NCBI GenBank assembly: GCA_000309945.1
Contig: CM001633.1
Span: 2,328,292-2,392,291 of the forward strand
Reading direction: 5' to 3'
Origin: Leptolyngbyaceae cyanobacterium JSC-12
GTDB taxonomy: Bacteria > Cyanobacteriota > Cyanobacteriia > Leptolyngbyales > Leptolyngbyaceae
DNA length: 64,000 nucleotides
In this document: positions 4,682 through 57,538 of the stretch, piece after piece
How the letters are laid out: every line of letters starts with the position of its first letter
Numbering within the stretch: the stretch's first letter is position 1
Made by a program: the position numbers and the translations under genes
Notes under the pieces: model-generated
Database searches by the model: none
Told to the model about the DNA's origin: nothing
Seen by the model: only the letters and a program-made list of their open reading frames with translations

Positions 4682-4834
4682 AGAGAAGGAGGGATAGGGA
4701 AGATGAGAACTGGGAGGAGGAGTGACGAAGTGATGTCCCTACCTCCTCCCCCGCCTCGATTCCCGATTCCTCGCTCCCTGGTGCTCTCAGCGTCGCGTTA
4801 CAATGCGCAAGGTGGATTTTAAGGTTCGTGATTC

Positions 4835-5725
4835 ATGCAGCTTCTCTCAAAGGCGGAGGCGGTTCCAGGGCAATATTGGCAATGGCGCTCACAGCCAATC
4901 TATTACGTCAAAGCAGGGGAAAACCGGGCAGATCGTCCCCCATTACTTTTGATTCATGGGTTTGGGGCATCAACAGATCACTGGCGCAAGAATGTGGCAG
5001 GGCTGAGTTCCGAATTTGAGGTGTGGGCGATCGACTTGCTGGGATTTGGGCGATCAGCAAAACCAGACTGGCAATATAGCGGCAATGTTTGGCGCGATCA
5101 GTTGCATGACTTTATTACTGAGGTGATTGGGCAACCTGCAATTTTAGTTGGAAATTCGCTGGGGGGTTACGCGGCGCTGTGTGTTGGAGCCCAACGATCT
5201 GAATCCGCAGCAGGTGTGGTGCTGATTAACAGTGCGGGTCCATTTACAGATATTCAGGGCACCACCAAGCCTGATCCGCTGCGAGCCGTAATGGGCAATG
5301 TGGTAAGGATGTTATTTCAGCAAGATTGGGCAAGCTTTTTGTTGTTTCAGTATGTGCGGCAAAAGTCGGTGATTCGCAAGACGCTAGAAAAGGTTTATCT
5401 CGACCAGTCTGCAGTTACTCCCCAACTTGTTGAAGATATTTATCGTCCCTCTTGCGATCCGGGTGCGCCTAAAGTATTTGCCTCAGTGTTTCGCACACCT
5501 CAGGGAGAAAAGGTAGATGTGTTGTTACATCAGTTGACCAGTCCGTTATTAATGATTTGGGGCGAGGCTGATCCGTGGATTGATGCGCGAGAGCGAGGAG
5601 CGAAGTTCCGGCATTACCACCCCCAGTTGACAGAGTACTACCTTCAGGCAGGGCACTGTCCCCATGATGAGGTGCCTGATCAGGTGAATGAACTGATTCG
5701 TTCCTGGGTGTTGTCGCTGGCATAG
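4835..5725 (+). CDS. Alpha/beta-fold hydrolase
   Basis: A 296-residue cytosolic hydrolase. The oxyanion-hole motif HGFGAS is near residue 43, the nucleophile elbow GNSLGG near residue 108, an acid in the WGEADPWID segment, and the catalytic His in AGHCPHDE near the C-terminus, all correctly ordered. Plant and cyanobacterial relatives include chlorophyll-dephytylating and other ester hydrolases, but the substrate cannot be read from the sequence. The gene converges on rph with only one base between the two stop codons, so no separate terminator is possible there. Confidence 0.85.
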   Translation: MQLLSKAEAVPGQYWQWRSQPIYYVKAGENRADRPPLLLIHGFGASTDHWRKNVAGLSSEFEVWAIDLLGFGRSAKPDWQYSGNVWRDQLHDFITEVIGQPAILVGNSLGGYAALCVGAQRSESAAGVVLINSAGPFTDIQGTTKPDPLRAVMGNVVRMLFQQDWASFLLFQYVRQKSVIRKTLEKVYLDQSAVTPQLVEDIYRPSCDPGAPKVFASVFRTPQGEKVDVLLHQLTSPLLMIWGEADPWIDARERGAKFRHYHPQLTEYYLQAGHCPHDEVPDQVNELIRSWVLSLA

Positions 5726-9585: not shown

Positions 9586-9638
9586 TACGAAAAATCCCCG
9601 AGCGTCTTACCTTGTTTCGACTTCGGGGATTTTTCGTA
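9586..9638. terminator. Bidirectional hairpin terminator
   Basis: A perfect 16-bp inverted repeat, with arms at 9586-9601 and 9623-9638, contains a GGGGA core flanked by A5/T5 runs on both strands, with a 21-nt loop. It lies between the methyltransferase (plus) and the WD40-kinase gene (minus), whose 3' ends converge here, so it can serve both. Confidence 0.85.
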
Positions 9639-9731: not shown

Positions 9732-11585
9732 TCAGGGGGTTGGCAGCCAGAGCTTGATGGTTTGATCCTGACTACCACTAGCTAGTATCGTGCCATCTGG
9801 ACTGAATGCTACAGTGCGAATAGGGTTAGTATGCCCAAGCAGGCGGTGTAGAAGATTTCCAGTTTGCGGATTCCATAGGGCTATTTCTTTGTCACCCCCA
9901 CTGGCAAGTACCTGACTGTTGGGGGTATATGCGATCGCTGAACTGCCATCAAAGGCATTATTCAATATTTGCAAGGGTTTATAGGTTTGAGCGTTCCAGA
10001 TCTGCACTGTTCTACCCACACTGCAAGCAAGAAAGCGCCCATCAGCGCTCACTGCAATCGATGTTACCCCGCCCATATGGCTAGAGACAGCGTAAACTAG
10101 TTGTCCTGTATGCGGATTCCAAACCTCCAGCCTTCCATCCAGATAGCCAAGCACACAGGTTTTGCCATCGGCATTAAAAGCGATCGCACGTACATTATCG
10201 GTTTCCGAGTCGGACAGCGATCGCAATAAACGCCCGGTTTGCACGGACCAGATATTGATTTCCCGACTGGAACTGCTGATTAAAATGCGCCCATTGGGGC
10301 TGAAAATAACCTGGTTAACTCGATGCCTATGCCCGGTTAGGGTTTGCTGCAAGTTCCCTGTCGGCAGCGACCACAAACAAATGGTTTTATCAAAACTGCT
10401 GCTGGCAAAGCAATCACTATTGGGGCTAATGGCGACATTTGTGACGCGATCGCTATGCTGACACAGCGTTTCGAGCAGGTTCTTAGAGCGTAAGGACCAG
10501 AGCTTAATCGTTGTGTCGTAGCTGCCACTGATTAATAAGTGATGTTCTGCGCTCATCGCGATCGTTGCGACCGTGCCGGTATGTCCTAACAATGTTCCTC
10601 GTAGTGCAACTCGTTTCCAGGAAACTGAAGGATCAGATGAGGCACGAAAAACGATGCCTAGCTTTTGTAGTAGTGATCGCTGGAGTGGCGGAGATTGGCG
10701 AGAAGGTCGATTGATGAGAGTTTGAGGGCGATCGGGGAGTGTAGTAGGAGCACTCAGTTCGTCAAGATACTTCAAAATCAACTGGGGCGTTCGAGGGCGA
10801 CGACTGGGTAACAGTGCCATCAAATAATCAATCAAATCCGCTAGAGGCTCGGAAATTTGAGAAGCACGGTCACGCCATAACAGTTTGCCAGTCCGGGGAT
10901 CTTTCTCCAGATCAATTGGGTGAGTGCCAGTTATTAAATGCACTAGAGTTCGTCCCAGAGCAAAAAAGTCTGATTGCAAAACCGCTTTCCCATCTGCTTG
11001 CTCAGGAGGGGTGTAACCAGGAGAGATCAGTCCAGTTCCAGTGACATTACGCAAATAGGTTTCGGTGATTTCACGAACGCCGCCAAAATCAATTAAAACC
11101 AGTTGTCCGTCTGGTTTTAACATGATGTTGGATGGTTTAATATCGCGATGAATAAGTCCTTCTTGATGAAGTTTTTCTAAAATCGTCACCAGTTGCTTCA
11201 GCCATGCGATCGCGTGGTCTTGAGTTATGGGTTGACTATGTTCTTGCTCTAACCACTGCTGTAAGTTCAACCCGTGAATTTTTTCCATCACCAGGCAATG
11301 AATCGGTTCTTGCTCCGGCTCAGATAGCACAAAATATCCATCTGAATCAACGTTGGGGATACCTGGGTAGTTCAAGCGGCTGAGCACGTCAGCTTCTCGC
11401 TGAAATAGCGCGATCGTTTTTTTCTTGCCTTCGGTGTTGTCAAACCGCTGCAGATTCAGCACTTTTAATACCTTAGTTATGCCTGCATCATCTACATCAA
11501 AGGTCTGGCTCAATCCACCTTTGCCAATCGGTTGTAGAACACGATAGCGATTATTTAACAATGCTCCTGGATAAACGAAGTTCAC
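9732..11585 (-). CDS. Serine/threonine protein kinase with C-terminal WD40 propeller
   Basis: 617 residues. The kinase domain (about 14-275) has the Gly-rich GKGGLSQTF, catalytic HRDIKPSN (146-153) and DFGG (166-169). After a linker (about 276-325), at least six to seven WD40 repeats fill residues 330-617, each with a GH...D..IKLW/ICLW-type pattern, predicted to form a protein-binding propeller. No membrane segment. The start codon overlaps the stop of the upstream NB-ARC ATPase gene by 4 bp (ATGA), so the two are made together. In many cyanobacteria the WD40 propeller is fused directly to the NB-ARC ATPase; here it is on the partner kinase. Substrate and signal are unknown. Confidence 0.9.
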   Translation of the reverse strand: MNFVYPGALLNNRYRVLQPIGKGGLSQTFDVDDAGITKVLKVLNLQRFDNTEGKKKTIALFQREADVLSRLNYPGIPNVDSDGYFVLSEPEQEPIHCLVMEKIHGLNLQQWLEQEHSQPITQDHAIAWLKQLVTILEKLHQEGLIHRDIKPSNIMLKPDGQLVLIDFGGVREITETYLRNVTGTGLISPGYTPPEQADGKAVLQSDFFALGRTLVHLITGTHPIDLEKDPRTGKLLWRDRASQISEPLADLIDYLMALLPSRRPRTPQLILKYLDELSAPTTLPDRPQTLINRPSRQSPPLQRSLLQKLGIVFRASSDPSVSWKRVALRGTLLGHTGTVATIAMSAEHHLLISGSYDTTIKLWSLRSKNLLETLCQHSDRVTNVAISPNSDCFASSSFDKTICLWSLPTGNLQQTLTGHRHRVNQVIFSPNGRILISSSSREINIWSVQTGRLLRSLSDSETDNVRAIAFNADGKTCVLGYLDGRLEVWNPHTGQLVYAVSSHMGGVTSIAVSADGRFLACSVGRTVQIWNAQTYKPLQILNNAFDGSSAIAYTPNSQVLASGGDKEIALWNPQTGNLLHRLLGHTNPIRTVAFSPDGTILASGSQDQTIKLWLPTP

Positions 11586-13261
11586 AGCAACTGACTCTCA
11601 GTAATCCGTTGCAAGTTTGTGAGATTAATCGTTGCGTATCCAATTGCTTGAGTTGCTCTTTGGTGGAGTGTCAGCAGCAAATGATTAAATCTCTGATTAA
11701 TTTCAGTACGATCGCCCAATGTTGTTTGTAAGTTATTCACAAGTAATTGCGTCATCAAATAGGCGTGGGTTTGCCGATGGTTGTATAATCGGTCATCTGA
11801 GAAGAGCGCATGACTTCTCAATAAACCTAGACTTTGAAGCGATTGAGTTTGAATAGTATTCAAAATATCATCCAATGTCTGCTCAGCTAGCTTCCTTAAG
11901 CTATAGCGCAACACAACAGGTTGTAACGTGAACAAAGGTTCCCCAGTCCGATCGCAGACTTCCTCCTCCAGGAGCGATCGCCGCTTTAAAGATTGCAGTG
12001 TTTTCAGCAACTCAGAGGATGAGGACACAATAAATCGAGCATTTTCTTTGAGCTTATCTAAGGATTGTTTTTCCAATGCCAACCAAAACATCACGTCCCT
12101 TTCAAGTGCAGAGAGCCGTTCAAACTGTTCATCGAGCAAACTTAATAAGCTATCGCCGATAATCACCGTGCTTTGCTTTAGTAACTGCGCGACATTGCCA
12201 TCAAACAGGTCTTGAATCGTGGTTGCGATAAATTGAAGTGCCAACGGATTGCCTCGTTTCAGTTGAATCAGTTCCTCGATTCCTGCTTGTGAACTGTTCA
12301 CCCCTTTCGCCTCCAACAGTTGCCTAGCATCAGTCGGAAGTAACCCTTTCAATCGCAAAGCTCGAACAGGTAGGGTGTCTCCCGCCAAAGACGCGATCTC
12401 AGAGGGTTGTTCCCGTCCAATCAACACCAAGCAACCTTGATGCTCATCCTCAGCAATGCGCCGAAAGAACTCCCCAAAACTCTGAAATCCCTGGCGATAC
12501 TGCCCTACTAGTTCACCACTTTGCAAAATGCCTTCCACGTTGTCTAACACCAGTAAGCAACGGTGTCCCCGCAAATACTCCAATAATTGCACCATGCGTC
12601 CGTTAGCATTACTTGCCAGCTCAATCTCTTCTCCTATCAATCCTTTAAGAAGGGTTGCTATGACATCAGCAAACGGTAGCGCATTGTTGAGCGATTGCCA
12701 AACAATTACCTCAAATGGGGATTGCAACTGACGTGCGAACTTGGTAACCAGAGCAGTTTTGCCGATTCCCCCTAAACCAGATAGCAGCATTAAAGAACAG
12801 CAGCCAGATTTGCCAGTCCCTTGAGAATCACCAACAATCCACTGCTGAAGTACATCGAACTCTTGAGTGCGTCCAAAAAAGACAGAAACATGGGGTACTC
12901 CAACCAGCCTGGATAGAACGGGTTGAGCCGAGTATCGCCCTGTAGGATTGCTAACAGGATCAGTTCTTGGCTGAAAGTGAGCTGCCTGTAGCGATATTTC
13001 TCGCTTTGCTCGCGCCAATGCCGCCTGAAAATTCGTTTTACTGACAGGTTCACCTAAGCCTTCAGAAAGAAGACTCCACAGAGCAGGACCTGCGAATTTC
13101 TTGATATAGCTAACAGAATAGTGTGAGTTTTGAGCAATCTGCTCATAGGTTAACCCCTGCAGAGAACCTTGCAATATCAACATCTGGACATCACTTAAAT
13201 GCTGCCCCGCTCTCGCAAACACAGCATTATCAGCTGCTCTACAAGCTTCCTCCACATTCAT
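11582..13261 (-). CDS. NB-ARC (STAND) ATPase with N-terminal vMAP-type HTH domain
   Basis: 559 residues. The N-terminus (1-90) has a helix-turn-helix-like region, TYEQIAQNSHYSVSYIKKF, typical of the vWA-MoxR-associated (vMAP) domain found on cyanobacterial STAND proteins. The NTPase follows: Walker A GLGGIGKT (162-169), Walker B CLLVLDN (D240), and a GNPLAL motif. A helical arm continues to the end with no repeat sensor. STAND ATPases act as signal-dependent switches in defence, death and regulation; the usual C-terminal sensor repeats are absent here and may be supplied in trans by the coupled WD40-kinase. Function is inferred from architecture only. Confidence 0.85.
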   Translation of the reverse strand: MNVEEACRAADNAVFARAGQHLSDVQMLILQGSLQGLTYEQIAQNSHYSVSYIKKFAGPALWSLLSEGLGEPVSKTNFQAALARAKREISLQAAHFQPRTDPVSNPTGRYSAQPVLSRLVGVPHVSVFFGRTQEFDVLQQWIVGDSQGTGKSGCCSLMLLSGLGGIGKTALVTKFARQLQSPFEVIVWQSLNNALPFADVIATLLKGLIGEEIELASNANGRMVQLLEYLRGHRCLLVLDNVEGILQSGELVGQYRQGFQSFGEFFRRIAEDEHQGCLVLIGREQPSEIASLAGDTLPVRALRLKGLLPTDARQLLEAKGVNSSQAGIEELIQLKRGNPLALQFIATTIQDLFDGNVAQLLKQSTVIIGDSLLSLLDEQFERLSALERDVMFWLALEKQSLDKLKENARFIVSSSSELLKTLQSLKRRSLLEEEVCDRTGEPLFTLQPVVLRYSLRKLAEQTLDDILNTIQTQSLQSLGLLRSHALFSDDRLYNHRQTHAYLMTQLLVNNLQTTLGDRTEINQRFNHLLLTLHQRATQAIGYATINLTNLQRITESQLL

Positions 13262-54292: not shown

Positions 54293-54979
54293 AGAAATTA
54301 ATGCCTATAAGATAAATTAATTGGATGACTAATTGTAACAGCCATGTTTCAGGACATTTCTGTAGAGCGTTATATCTCTTCTACAAGATGCTATTTAACA
54401 AACTGCGATAAAGTTATCCCAGCTTGGAGGCTATACAAGCAGAGAAATGAGCGATCGCCTGCGTAAAGGTGCTTACAAATGTTTGTATCGAGGCACAGTT
54501 TTAGTGTGAATAAGCATAGAAAAGTTAGCTAGAAACAATAAAGAAGTTTTTTACTTTATAGAGTCATCCCAATTGGAGCGTTCAGCATCTATAGAAAATC
54601 TTGACAAATGCTGACCAATTCTCTCAACTGAGATTCGGTATCTCTTGTCCTTATTATTGCAAAAAATAAAGTGTTGTCATGACCTCGCAAGTCAGGAGGT
54701 CAGTGCGGGTACTGTCTTAAGGTGTCGCTATGCCAAGGGCAACCTGAACAGATAGAAAATAAAAGTGTTGTAATAGTAAAAGTTTGTTACTTAGGATAGT
54801 CGCCTGGTAACCAAACAGGGTGCTAAAGACCTGAAGATTTGATAAGTCTGGAATTGGTCAGGTAGGACGCAGTTACCGACAAAAGCTTTTCGGTGATTGT
54901 TTGCAATCTTCGCATAATCTTTTCCGGGGTTACTCATCTCAGATTTTCACGTGGTAGGTTCTTTGCATCAAGTGCAACC
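54293..54979. other. Long intergenic region before the CHASE2 kinase
   Basis: 687 bp without a clear gene. The segment 54690-54880 is richer in G/C with short stems (GGTAACC-type) and might hold a 5' leader or small RNA, but I cannot identify one. The ATG at 54980 is chosen as the kinase start; a GTG frame to 54893 is the alternative. Confidence 0.4.
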
Positions 54980-57538
54980 ATGTCTGAAAAAAAATCTTTG
55001 CCCCAAACAGAGACTCTGGAGACTGGTTCTCAGCCATCTCGTAGTCGCCAATCTGGGAAGCGCATGTTCAAAGTTTGGAATCAAAAAATTCGGTCTCGTA
55101 CGTTTGTTCAACTCAAGTTCTCACACGTTGGGCATGTGTTGATGGGTGCGATCGCGCTTGGGGCAGCCTTTGCAACCGCCAAAAATTCTAACTTCGTTCA
55201 CTTACAAGAGCGCCATATTCAAACCTCATTTTTTGACATTCGCGGCAAGGTTGATTTTCCCAATACTGCTACTGCGCCTGACAAGGCTGGAATCATGATT
55301 CTGGCAGTTGATGGTGATTCAATGACGCAGGGAACCCAGATTTATTCGAGTGATCCTAGCCAGTATGCTTATCTGGAACCGATTGAGCGCTGGCCCTGGA
55401 AACGAACAGCCTATGCGATCGCCATCGATCGACTGATGCAAGCAGGTGCACGGGCTGTCGTGCTCGACATTGTTCTTGATGCCTCAAGCAGTTACGGACA
55501 GCAAGACGATGAGCGACTACGCCAAATTCTCAAGAAGTATCCAGGTCGAGTGACACTCGCAGCTCAATATCTGGATGAAGTTAAGCGAACTGGAGAAGAA
55601 ATTCGGTTACTCACCCCGAATCCAACGTTTCAGGAAGCCTCTCCGCTCATTGGGTTCATTAACTTTTACCTTAGCCCCGATGGTCGAATTCATGAGATGG
55701 GCAGTGAATATCTCAAACGCTTGGTTCAATCCAATAAGGAATTGGGGAAAGTTATTCCACAAGCTCCTTCTTTGGCAGAAGCTGCTCTGAAATCAGCGCA
55801 AATTCCCTATCCCCTTCCCACAGGAGAAAATATTTTTTTCTATGGTCCTAGCAAAACGGTGGAACAAGTTCCCTTCTGGCACGTACTCGATCCAGTCAAT
55901 TGGAACAACTATCATCTTAAAAATCAGACGTTTAAGGACAAGATTGTTTTAATTGGACCGACAGGCGGCGGCGAATCATTTCAAGACTTTCATGCTGCTC
56001 CGTTTTCCGGCACTTTGCGCTACCCGGAGAAAATGGCTGGCGTAGAAATTCAGGCAAATGCGATTGCCACCCTGATGGAAGGTAAAACGATCACCCATGC
56101 TTTTCCTAATCTCCTGGTAAGAGGTGGAGTGGTCATGGTAATTGTGCTGCTGGCTGCCTATCTGCAAACGCTCACTTCTCATCCTCTCCGGCGCTTTGGG
56201 TACGGGATCGCAATTGCGCTGGTGTGGGGAGTTGTTAGCTATAGCGTGTTTGTGAGAGGACGCTTGATTTTACCAACTGCCGTCCCTATGATTGCGATCG
56301 CCCTTAGCAGCGGCTCCTACCTATTTACTGGGATCATCAGCAAGCAGATTCAACTGCTGCGTTCAGCAAGAGCCTTCAAAGGGTCTGAAGAGGTTCGAGA
56401 ATTTCTCAGTTCTACCCAACAAGAAGAATTTATGCAGGTGGTCGATGGATATGATCAGAAAATGCTAGGGCGCAAACTCAGAGGGCGTTACAAGATTGTG
56501 GAAGATTTAGGCGCAGGTGGACAAGGGCAAACCTATCTGGCTCAAGATATTGATCGCCCTGGTAACCCTGCCTGCGTAGTGAAACGCCTGCGTCCAGCAT
56601 ACAAAGGGCAAAAATTTCTCCGCATTGCCGAGAACTTATTTCAGCGAGAAGCCGTTGCCCTTGAAAAACTGGGTAAGCATGATCAAATTCCCCAGTTACT
56701 TGCCTATTTTGAGGAAGATTACGACTTTTATCTAGTGCAAGAATATATCGAAGGAAAATCCCTAGCAGATGAACTCAAACTGCACAATTTTTTGTCGAAA
56801 CCAATTAATGAGCAAAAAGTGGTGATGGTGTTGTATGAATTGTTGCAAGTGCTTGACTTTGTCCACCAGCATGGGGTAATTCATCGAGACATTAAACCAG
56901 CCAATGTGATTCGGCGAAAATCTGATGGAAAATTGGTGTTGATTGATTTTGGTGCAGTAAAGCAGATTGAAAAACTAGAAGAAACCCCTGAAGGGACAGC
57001 GCTCACGGTTGCGATTGGAACTAAGAACTATATGGCACCTGAACAGGCGGCTGGTAGACCATGCCCAGCCAGTGACATTTATTCATTGGGTATCACTGGG
57101 CTGCAAGCACTTACAGGACTAGACGCCAGTGAATTAGAGAAACACCGTGATTCCCAAACACACGAACTGCACTGGAAACAGAATGTGCAAGTGAGTCATA
57201 CACTGGCAGAGATTTTAGACCGCATGGTATGCCTTAACCTTACTGATCGCTACCAGTCTGCCCACGATGCCCTGATCGATCTGACCCCCCTGGCAGAGTA
57301 TGCTCAAAAGTCTGGTTTTGCAAATATAGATGCCTGGGGGAACCCCATCCCCTTTTCTCTAGAGGATAGAAACACCGATGAGGAAGAAACAAAGCCGTGG
57401 TTGGAAGGAGCCAATGTGGGAGAACTTCCTCCTACTGATCCGGATGGGGACTGTCAAGAGAATGAAGGGATCGATTCAATCCATGTGGACGATACCAAAT
57501 TGTGGCAAAAGGAGAGCGATGGCGATACGTGGGAGTGA
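54980..57538 (+). CDS. CHASE2-domain serine/threonine protein kinase
   Basis: 852 residues. After a basic N-terminus and TM1 (about 48-66), the CHASE2 sensor (about 70-350) is predicted to lie outside the membrane. Two or three helices (about 365-435; GGVVMVIVLLAAYLQTL, MIAIALSSGSYLFTG) precede the kinase domain: LGAGGQGQTYLA near 510, HRDIKPANV near 635 and DFGAVKQ near 655. The C-terminus is an acidic Asp/Glu-rich tail. Sensor kinase for an external signal; the signal is unknown. Confidence 0.93.
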   Translation: MSEKKSLPQTETLETGSQPSRSRQSGKRMFKVWNQKIRSRTFVQLKFSHVGHVLMGAIALGAAFATAKNSNFVHLQERHIQTSFFDIRGKVDFPNTATAPDKAGIMILAVDGDSMTQGTQIYSSDPSQYAYLEPIERWPWKRTAYAIAIDRLMQAGARAVVLDIVLDASSSYGQQDDERLRQILKKYPGRVTLAAQYLDEVKRTGEEIRLLTPNPTFQEASPLIGFINFYLSPDGRIHEMGSEYLKRLVQSNKELGKVIPQAPSLAEAALKSAQIPYPLPTGENIFFYGPSKTVEQVPFWHVLDPVNWNNYHLKNQTFKDKIVLIGPTGGGESFQDFHAAPFSGTLRYPEKMAGVEIQANAIATLMEGKTITHAFPNLLVRGGVVMVIVLLAAYLQTLTSHPLRRFGYGIAIALVWGVVSYSVFVRGRLILPTAVPMIAIALSSGSYLFTGIISKQIQLLRSARAFKGSEEVREFLSSTQQEEFMQVVDGYDQKMLGRKLRGRYKIVEDLGAGGQGQTYLAQDIDRPGNPACVVKRLRPAYKGQKFLRIAENLFQREAVALEKLGKHDQIPQLLAYFEEDYDFYLVQEYIEGKSLADELKLHNFLSKPINEQKVVMVLYELLQVLDFVHQHGVIHRDIKPANVIRRKSDGKLVLIDFGAVKQIEKLEETPEGTALTVAIGTKNYMAPEQAAGRPCPASDIYSLGITGLQALTGLDASELEKHRDSQTHELHWKQNVQVSHTLAEILDRMVCLNLTDRYQSAHDALIDLTPLAEYAQKSGFANIDAWGNPIPFSLEDRNTDEEETKPWLEGANVGELPPTDPDGDCQENEGIDSIHVDDTKLWQKESDGDTWE

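Follow-up and report, generated by a model that had tools for sequence, protein, structure and literature searches.

AfsK, a Ser/Thr kinase of Streptomyces, carries a beta-propeller as its tail. The kinase phosphorylates AfsR, and phosphorylated AfsR binds the afsS promoter more (PMC10972967), AfsR being described with NB-ARC and TPR parts (PMC1262709). Here we describe a gene pair that recalls this arrangement, found in a 64,000-nucleotide stretch of Leptolyngbyaceae cyanobacterium JSC-12 (contig CM001633.1, positions 2,328,292 to 2,392,291; hereafter the window), in which a STAND ATPase with a helix-turn-helix (HTH)-like N-terminus and an NB-ARC core is followed by a Hanks-type Ser/Thr kinase with a C-terminal WD40 propeller. 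The pair is like AfsK/AfsR in that a Ser/Thr kinase bearing a sensory part at its C-terminus stands beside an NB-ARC regulator, which in AfsR binds DNA and is the substrate of the kinase; in the window the kinase with WD40 and the NB-ARC are present, and the HTH match is sub-threshold. The two systems differ in that AfsR binds DNA through a SARP/BTAD part and ends in TPRs, whereas the HTH of the window ATPase is of another type and Pfam matched neither a SARP/BTAD domain nor a TPR on it; furthermore the window genes overlap, unlike those of AfsK and AfsR. The pair probably represents a signalling module not studied before, rather than a demonstrated defence system.

Other described proteins share single features with it. 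The HstK dual kinases of Nostoc, in which a Ser/Thr kinase, a STAND-like ATPase, a GAF domain and a His kinase make up one chain, resemble the pair in coupling a Hanks kinase to an ATPase module, and differ in being a single chain with a histidine kinase output. The NB-ARC-WD40 (APAF1-like) proteins of cyanobacteria, which are already known, agree with the window ATPase in having NB-ARC, a winged helix and a helical region, preceded by an HTH-like N-terminus in the proteins aligned, but carry WD40 on the ATPase chain itself (14 stretches in L089) and form, with truncated relatives, one 30-row clade. Cyanobacterial 4-Cys (zinc-ribbon-like) Hanks kinases have a kinase domain 45-61% identical to that of the window kinase, and some share the WD40, TPR and CHASE2 tails described below, but 55 of the 69 evaluable stand without an ATPase partner, and the window kinase does not have their 4-Cys N-terminus. 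The vWA-MoxR-VMAP ternary systems, regulated NTPase systems widespread in cyanobacteria among others (PMC7159879), differ in their components, as Pfam found no MoxR, vWA or VMAP-C in the pair or among nine near neighbours (scanned at E 1e-8). The vMAP identity that the original prediction gave to the ATPase was dropped, since no VMAP family was matched in Pfam and the N-terminus gave sub-threshold HTH matches only. Kinases with WD40, TPR and CHASE2 are likewise already known (PMC2877116), and a 2017 survey of prokaryotic WD40 proteins reports WD40 genes to be often adjacent to Ser/Thr kinases, and includes one Nostoc cluster with WD40, CHASE2 and DUF928 genes (PMC5587647). For the ATPase-kinase operon itself we found no description in searches of an open-access library.

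Both genes lie on the minus strand, the ATPase (559 aa, ATG start, 11582..13261) upstream of the kinase (617 aa, GTG start, 9732..11585), and the stop of the first shares 4 bp (11582..11585) with the GTG of the second, as had been read from the open reading frames at the outset; the two are probably translationally coupled through this overlap. In the kinase, Pfam recognises Pkinase at 105.6 bits and seven WD40 stretches. The kinase domain (aa 1-285, 10731..11585) retains HRDIKPSN, DFG and the catalytic Lys, and a two-sequence AlphaFold2 model builds residues 326-615 of the propeller (aa 326-617, 9735..10610) as 28 strands in seven blades, with ten-residue means of the predicted local distance difference test (pLDDT) of 74-94 apart from a single block at 62; in this model the half that covers the kinase domain falls below 50 and is unusable. 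The propeller, as predicted, is on the kinase rather than on the ATPase. The ATPase matches NB-ARC at 43.9 bits against a cut-off of 23.5 and has the P-loop GLGGIGKT and the Walker B CLLVLD. Its AlphaFold2 model (mean pLDDT 71.8, predicted template modelling score 0.39) lays out HTH-like helices at 3-94, the NB-ARC core, a winged helix at 370-447 and then helices only at 448-558. The HTH-like domain (aa 1-92, 12986..13261) is delineated by these helices (pLDDT about 80-92), by sub-threshold Pfam matches and by conservation of the N-terminus across ten aligned relatives, whether paired, solo or fused; LuxR-type GerE is above cut-off in the paired ATPase of L155. A search of PDB sequences with the HTH profile gave matches that we regard as chance hits, led by a repeat protein whose individual repeats score near 5 bits. 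The C-terminal helical region (aa 450-559, 11585..11914), which has a GYAxxN motif close to its end, has a counterpart preceding the propeller in aligned WD40 fusions. Pfam matched no repeat domain (WD40, TPR or LRR) in the window ATPase and none in any of the ten paired ATPases run through it, so that the predicted lack of the usual C-terminal sensor repeats is borne out, with a cryptic helical sensor possible at this model quality. Among solved structures the ATPase is matched best by plant NLR resistosomes and ORC/Cdc6 ATPases, which is what a STAND ATPase would be expected to give: in VIA-align the core matches 6j6i (Z 12.5, 3.3 Å over 146 residues) and residues 369-461 match the winged helix of 5yi0 (Z 11.5, 3.4 Å over 85 residues), most whole-length rows having a root-mean-square deviation above 10 Å and residues 1-127 being hardly covered. 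AfsR itself (8k60) also comes up when PDB sequences are searched with the ATPase profile (E 1.6e-4).

The gene pair is not a chance arrangement, because the sister species Leptolyngbyaceae cyanobacterium C42_A2020_001 (L036) keeps both genes, the identical 4-bp overlap and the argJ neighbour, and because both genes are under purifying selection. The sister ATPase is about 76% identical, and the proportions of nonsynonymous and synonymous differences (pN/pS) between the two species give about 0.2 for each gene (ATPase 0.141/0.687, kinase 0.113/0.624); within the kinase gene, constraint is stronger on the kinase domain (0.062/0.560) than on the propeller (0.141/0.683), and argJ (0.018/0.411) evolves more slowly than either gene. 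The pair also recurs well beyond these two species. We surveyed 388 genomes of the class, with few candidates scored per genome, so that the counts of genomes and pairs are lower bounds and a genome without a listed match may still have one. ATPase relatives at E 1e-60 occur in at least 226 of them, most frames among the matches listed being about 1200 aa, and two shorter frames (G202, G129) are followed by a same-strand kinase with CHASE2. A kinase-domain search of the same genomes, in which at least 194 had a match at E 1e-50, followed by inspection of the upstream sequence, brought the total to at least 24 ATPase-kinase pairs out of 84 kinases examined, spread over 24 genomes and 11 cyanobacterial family codes. 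The conservation on which the original prediction depended is thereby established for genes in this order. The gap between the genes runs from -26 to 307 bp in the 23 pairs other than that of the window, five of them being -4, six when the window is counted.

These pairs were reached by several routes. The ATPase lies directly upstream in eight of the first 30 kinase loci (window and sister included; one locus was cut by a contig edge) and in ten of the next 40 rows, giving 18 of 70 in the rank-ordered part, to which four of 12 hand-picked loci and the two reached from the ATPase side (G202, G129) are added. The next 40 were the listed rows without a locus, in table order, of which G107:C14:92707 was not fetched for itself; the 12 were picked by frame length or alignment start, and 66 further listed rows, with the unlisted ones, fall outside the survey. 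L173 is counted as an edge case, since this G107 kinase is cut by the stretch; for the other kinase of that locus the stretch shows no ATPase match. The sequence available upstream of the kinases measured about 1.4 kb in L118-L147 and about 2.5 kb in most of the other loci, and partners were recognised by BLAST to the window proteins, by which distant partners may escape. In G116, of the same family as G129, both genes are on one contig about 55 kb apart. L199 (G289) holds a possible three-gene variant, made of an NB-ARC piece, an unrecognised 529-aa open reading frame and a short kinase 26 bp further on.

What varies among the paired kinases is the tail. WD40 is found on three (window, sister and L192), CHASE2 on four (L051, L053, L193, L198) and TPR on seven (L155, L159, L167, L188, L190, L191 and L153, whose best TPR model falls just under the cut-off), and in ten the tail is absent or short (L158, L160, L163, L168, L176, L184, L189, L204, L205, L206). 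Among these ten, L163 and L189 were run through Pfam and the other eight judged by length, the kinase of L189 being possibly a broken or misassembled gene; the CHASE2 of L198 and the WD40 of the sister rest on BLAST or alignment. All 24 paired kinases show the catalytic Lys, HRD and DFG patterns, and all 22 ATPases complete enough to assess have the P-loop; the glycine loop is degenerate in the 4-Cys group of paired kinases.

On the kinase-domain tree of 84 rows the pairing labels need 6 changes, against 21.1 in shuffles, and the pairs fall into one group of 16 rows (93/84) with ten pairs, including that of the window, and another of 15 rows (100/98) with 14 pairs and the G116 kinase. The ATPase tree (62 rows, unrooted) left out 12 near-duplicate loci, one of them restored as representative, and the partial pair L167; it gathers the 17 WD40 fusions into one 30-row group (97/100) whose other 13 members are WD40-less relatives, and all 23 pairs lie outside it. 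Some WD40-less ATPases thus fall within the fusion clade and others form lineages of their own, and it is to the latter that the pairs belong. Partner distances correlate (r=0.79 for the 23 pairs, 0 of 5000 permutations; r=0.35 for the 13 left by dereplication, 22 of 5000).

We tentatively propose that the pair is a member of a two-gene phospho-signalling module akin to AfsK/AfsR, in which the kinase would signal to the HTH-NB-ARC ATPase. The STAND ATPase and the Hanks-type kinase would be made from one coupled message, and the two proteins would interact physically. The kinase would hold an interchangeable input domain, WD40 here, TPR or CHASE2 elsewhere and sometimes none, through which a signal may engage it. 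Engaged, the kinase would transfer phosphate to its HTH-NB-ARC partner, and this phosphorylation would shift the ADP/ATP state and the oligomerisation of the ATPase, which, binding DNA through its HTH, would alter the transcription of target genes as the output of the module. We assign the input to the kinase and the response to the ATPase because of the HTH-like N-terminus of the latter and the resemblance to AfsK/AfsR. It is possible, at a lower degree of confidence, that the pairs taken together form a not yet described class of two-gene phosphorylation switches with a common HTH-NB-ARC and Hanks kinase core and exchangeable kinase inputs, several of them followed by genes for secreted or surface proteins; such a class would be a Ser/Thr analogue of two-component systems, the STAND ATPase serving as response element. 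The original prediction of a two-part switch with its sensor on the kinase stands in part: the module is real and conserved, a tail is present on 14 of the 24 kinases, and the ATPases run through Pfam are without repeats.

Several observations weigh against this proposal. Ten of the 24 paired kinases show no recognised added domain, so that a kinase carrying the sensor is not general. The Sigma70_r4_2/HTH matches of the window N-terminus in Pfam are all sub-threshold, and DNA binding by the window ATPase is uncertain for this reason. The simple.PEQ pattern is present in 11 of the 24 paired kinases and missing in 13. Each gene also occurs without the other as a neighbour: 58 of 82 evaluable look-alike kinases have no adjoining ATPase, among them the closest non-orthologous one, the WD40 kinase of G020 (L195), and of 33 evaluable WD40-less ATPases resembling that of the window, itself not counted (at least 800 bp downstream; 13 from one solo lineage, family f23) three adjoin a kinase and 30 do not, so that a WD40-less ATPase can exist alone. 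The loci of this ATPase-side count were chosen from the listing mainly for short frames, with 14 earlier loci and four places in the own genome. The window subtype is also rare, in that a profile of the five closest ATPases (own rows 884-940 bits) gives no clear sixth among the matches listed for the 388 genomes, the next being a fusion at 565 bits. The two trees are not fully congruent, the window ATPase grouping weakly (92/58) with partners of CHASE2 kinases and the window kinase in the other group, and shared host descent also contributes to the partner correlation. Finally, the DUF928 genes behind three pairs hint at an envelope role that the transcription-factor model does not by itself explain.

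The main rival reverses the flow of information. In this NLR-like arrangement, which we consider somewhat unlikely, the STAND ATPase would be the hub, oligomerising on a trigger and activating the kinase by induced proximity, with the kinase as effector of a stress, cell-death or defence output and its tail used for docking or localising. Such an order of events is in keeping with the match of the ATPase fold to plant NLR resistosome cores, with the ATPase being first in gene order and with the ten kinases lacking a recognised extra domain, as expected if the kinase needs no sensor. It fits less well with an ATPase that has no recognised sensor repeats and with the surroundings of the pair, which lies, as judged from its neighbours, in a housekeeping region: the flanking genes with a Pfam match encode an alpha/beta hydrolase, RNase PH, a corrinoid adenosyltransferase, a dCTP deaminase-like protein, a PUA/SAM methyltransferase, ArgJ and a glycine-betaine binding protein; the other two genes scanned had no match. 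No ATPase relative was found in 50,697 phage records, and PADLOC recognised no defence gene among 10 flanking genes save a generic match of the PUA/SAM methyltransferase to a methyltransferase model at 69 bits. The same surroundings bear on an anti-phage defence pair, which we regard as very unlikely. STAND ATPases and Hanks kinases are each found in defence systems, the best PADLOC match of the window kinase is PD-T4-6 at 357 bits, and ATPase relatives at below 60% identity are carried by plasmids (76 of 72,556 records, of which 22 are typed as conjugative); but four out of four unpaired cyanobacterial kinases score higher on the same model (382-492 bits), and the pair occupies a syntenic chromosomal site in the sister species. 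The PD-T4-6 identity was dropped as having no specificity over ordinary unpaired kinases, and the defence role suggested by the original prediction found no support, given the housekeeping neighbours and the higher matches of the unpaired kinases.

The genes behind the pairs raise another reading, that of co-expressed but separate regulators, in which the operon would set the dose of two proteins acting on a shared envelope or surface process without contact; we think this unlikely. It draws on third genes with signal-peptide-like starts (by eye). DUF928 genes stand directly behind the CHASE2 kinases of L053 (3924-4772), L193 (1917-2735) and L198 (4795-5628), from a 4-bp overlap to an 18-bp gap, and in L193 a two-partner secretion (TPS) exoprotein gene comes next; a family without a Pfam name (Pfam run on L188 and L155) follows the TPR kinases of L188 (2273-3214), L190 (2433-3311), L191 (2123-3028) and L155 (4393-5301), with a TPR-like C-terminal part in L188. 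Judged by their sequences, these third genes suggest envelope or surface signalling rather than phage defence. Kinship between DUF928 and the unnamed family is not supported (hhalign probability 0.2%). Separate action is harder to square with the 4-bp overlaps in six of 24 pairs and the co-variation of the partners, and no DUF928-like or signal-peptide third gene lies behind the window pair; the own genome has nine DUF928 matches. Still less probable, and indeed highly improbable in our view, is that the pair is a former single-chain NB-ARC-WD40 switch whose propeller moved to the kinase. Residues 1-550 of the ATPase align to the N-terminal half of the NB-ARC-WD40 frames of about 1200 aa, and WD40 does sit on the neighbouring protein, but the paired ATPases fall outside the fusion clade of the unrooted tree, by which this origin is largely refuted; moreover WD40 is missing from 21 of the 24 partner kinases, which have TPR, CHASE2 or no recognised domain in its place, and the survey contains many WD40 kinases that lack such a partner. 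None of 14 evaluable NB-ARC-WD40 fusions adjoins a kinase.

Further observations concern the surroundings of the pairs. CHAT-domain (CHAT-protease) genes are near the pairs of L051 and L159. Behind the short paired kinases of L160, L163, L168, L205 and L206 lies a convergent gene, alike in all five as judged by the beginning of its sequence, which overlaps the kinase end in four and in L163 encodes an extracellular solute-binding protein (Pfam run on L163), and in L153 the protein behind the paired kinase (4806-5501) has an N-terminus that by eye resembles the ATPases of L158 and L192. The solo f23 ATPases of L059, L061 and L067 are followed after 98 bp by a gene of 410-415 aa, class III adenylate/guanylate cyclase-like in L059 (Pfam run on L059), which is perhaps another output partner of these ATPases. 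In the own genome the window ATPase matches five other, weaker places and the window kinase 20 other kinase- or WD40-like stretches, with no kinase-like gene, and so no second pair, in the stretches around those five ATPase matches (L070-L073). One of them, L070 (C1, about 1767082-1772255), holds an NB-ARC-WD40 gene in two pieces about 1.4 kb apart, the spacer containing a long frame that by eye resembles a transposase. The window itself has a second kinase of reverse order at 54893-57538 (+), with CHASE2 N-terminal and the kinase domain behind. Between the kinase of the pair and the convergent methyltransferase gene a strong hairpin flanked by A/T runs (9586..9638) looks terminator-like on both strands by inspection, folding at -38.3 kcal/mol for 100 nt; it was not listed by the consensus promoter/terminator scan, which found three promoter-like sites against 5.2 expected and six terminator-like sites against 3.7 expected.

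Cyanobacterial genomes encode Hanks kinases and NB-ARC ATPases in large numbers, but few of their substrates or signals are known. The conserved gene pair gives a kinase of this kind a directly testable candidate partner, and the exchangeable input domains permit sensor swaps. If the two proteins do work together, the pair would tie together two large orphan families, with a bacterial kinase controlling an NLR-type switch, or the reverse.

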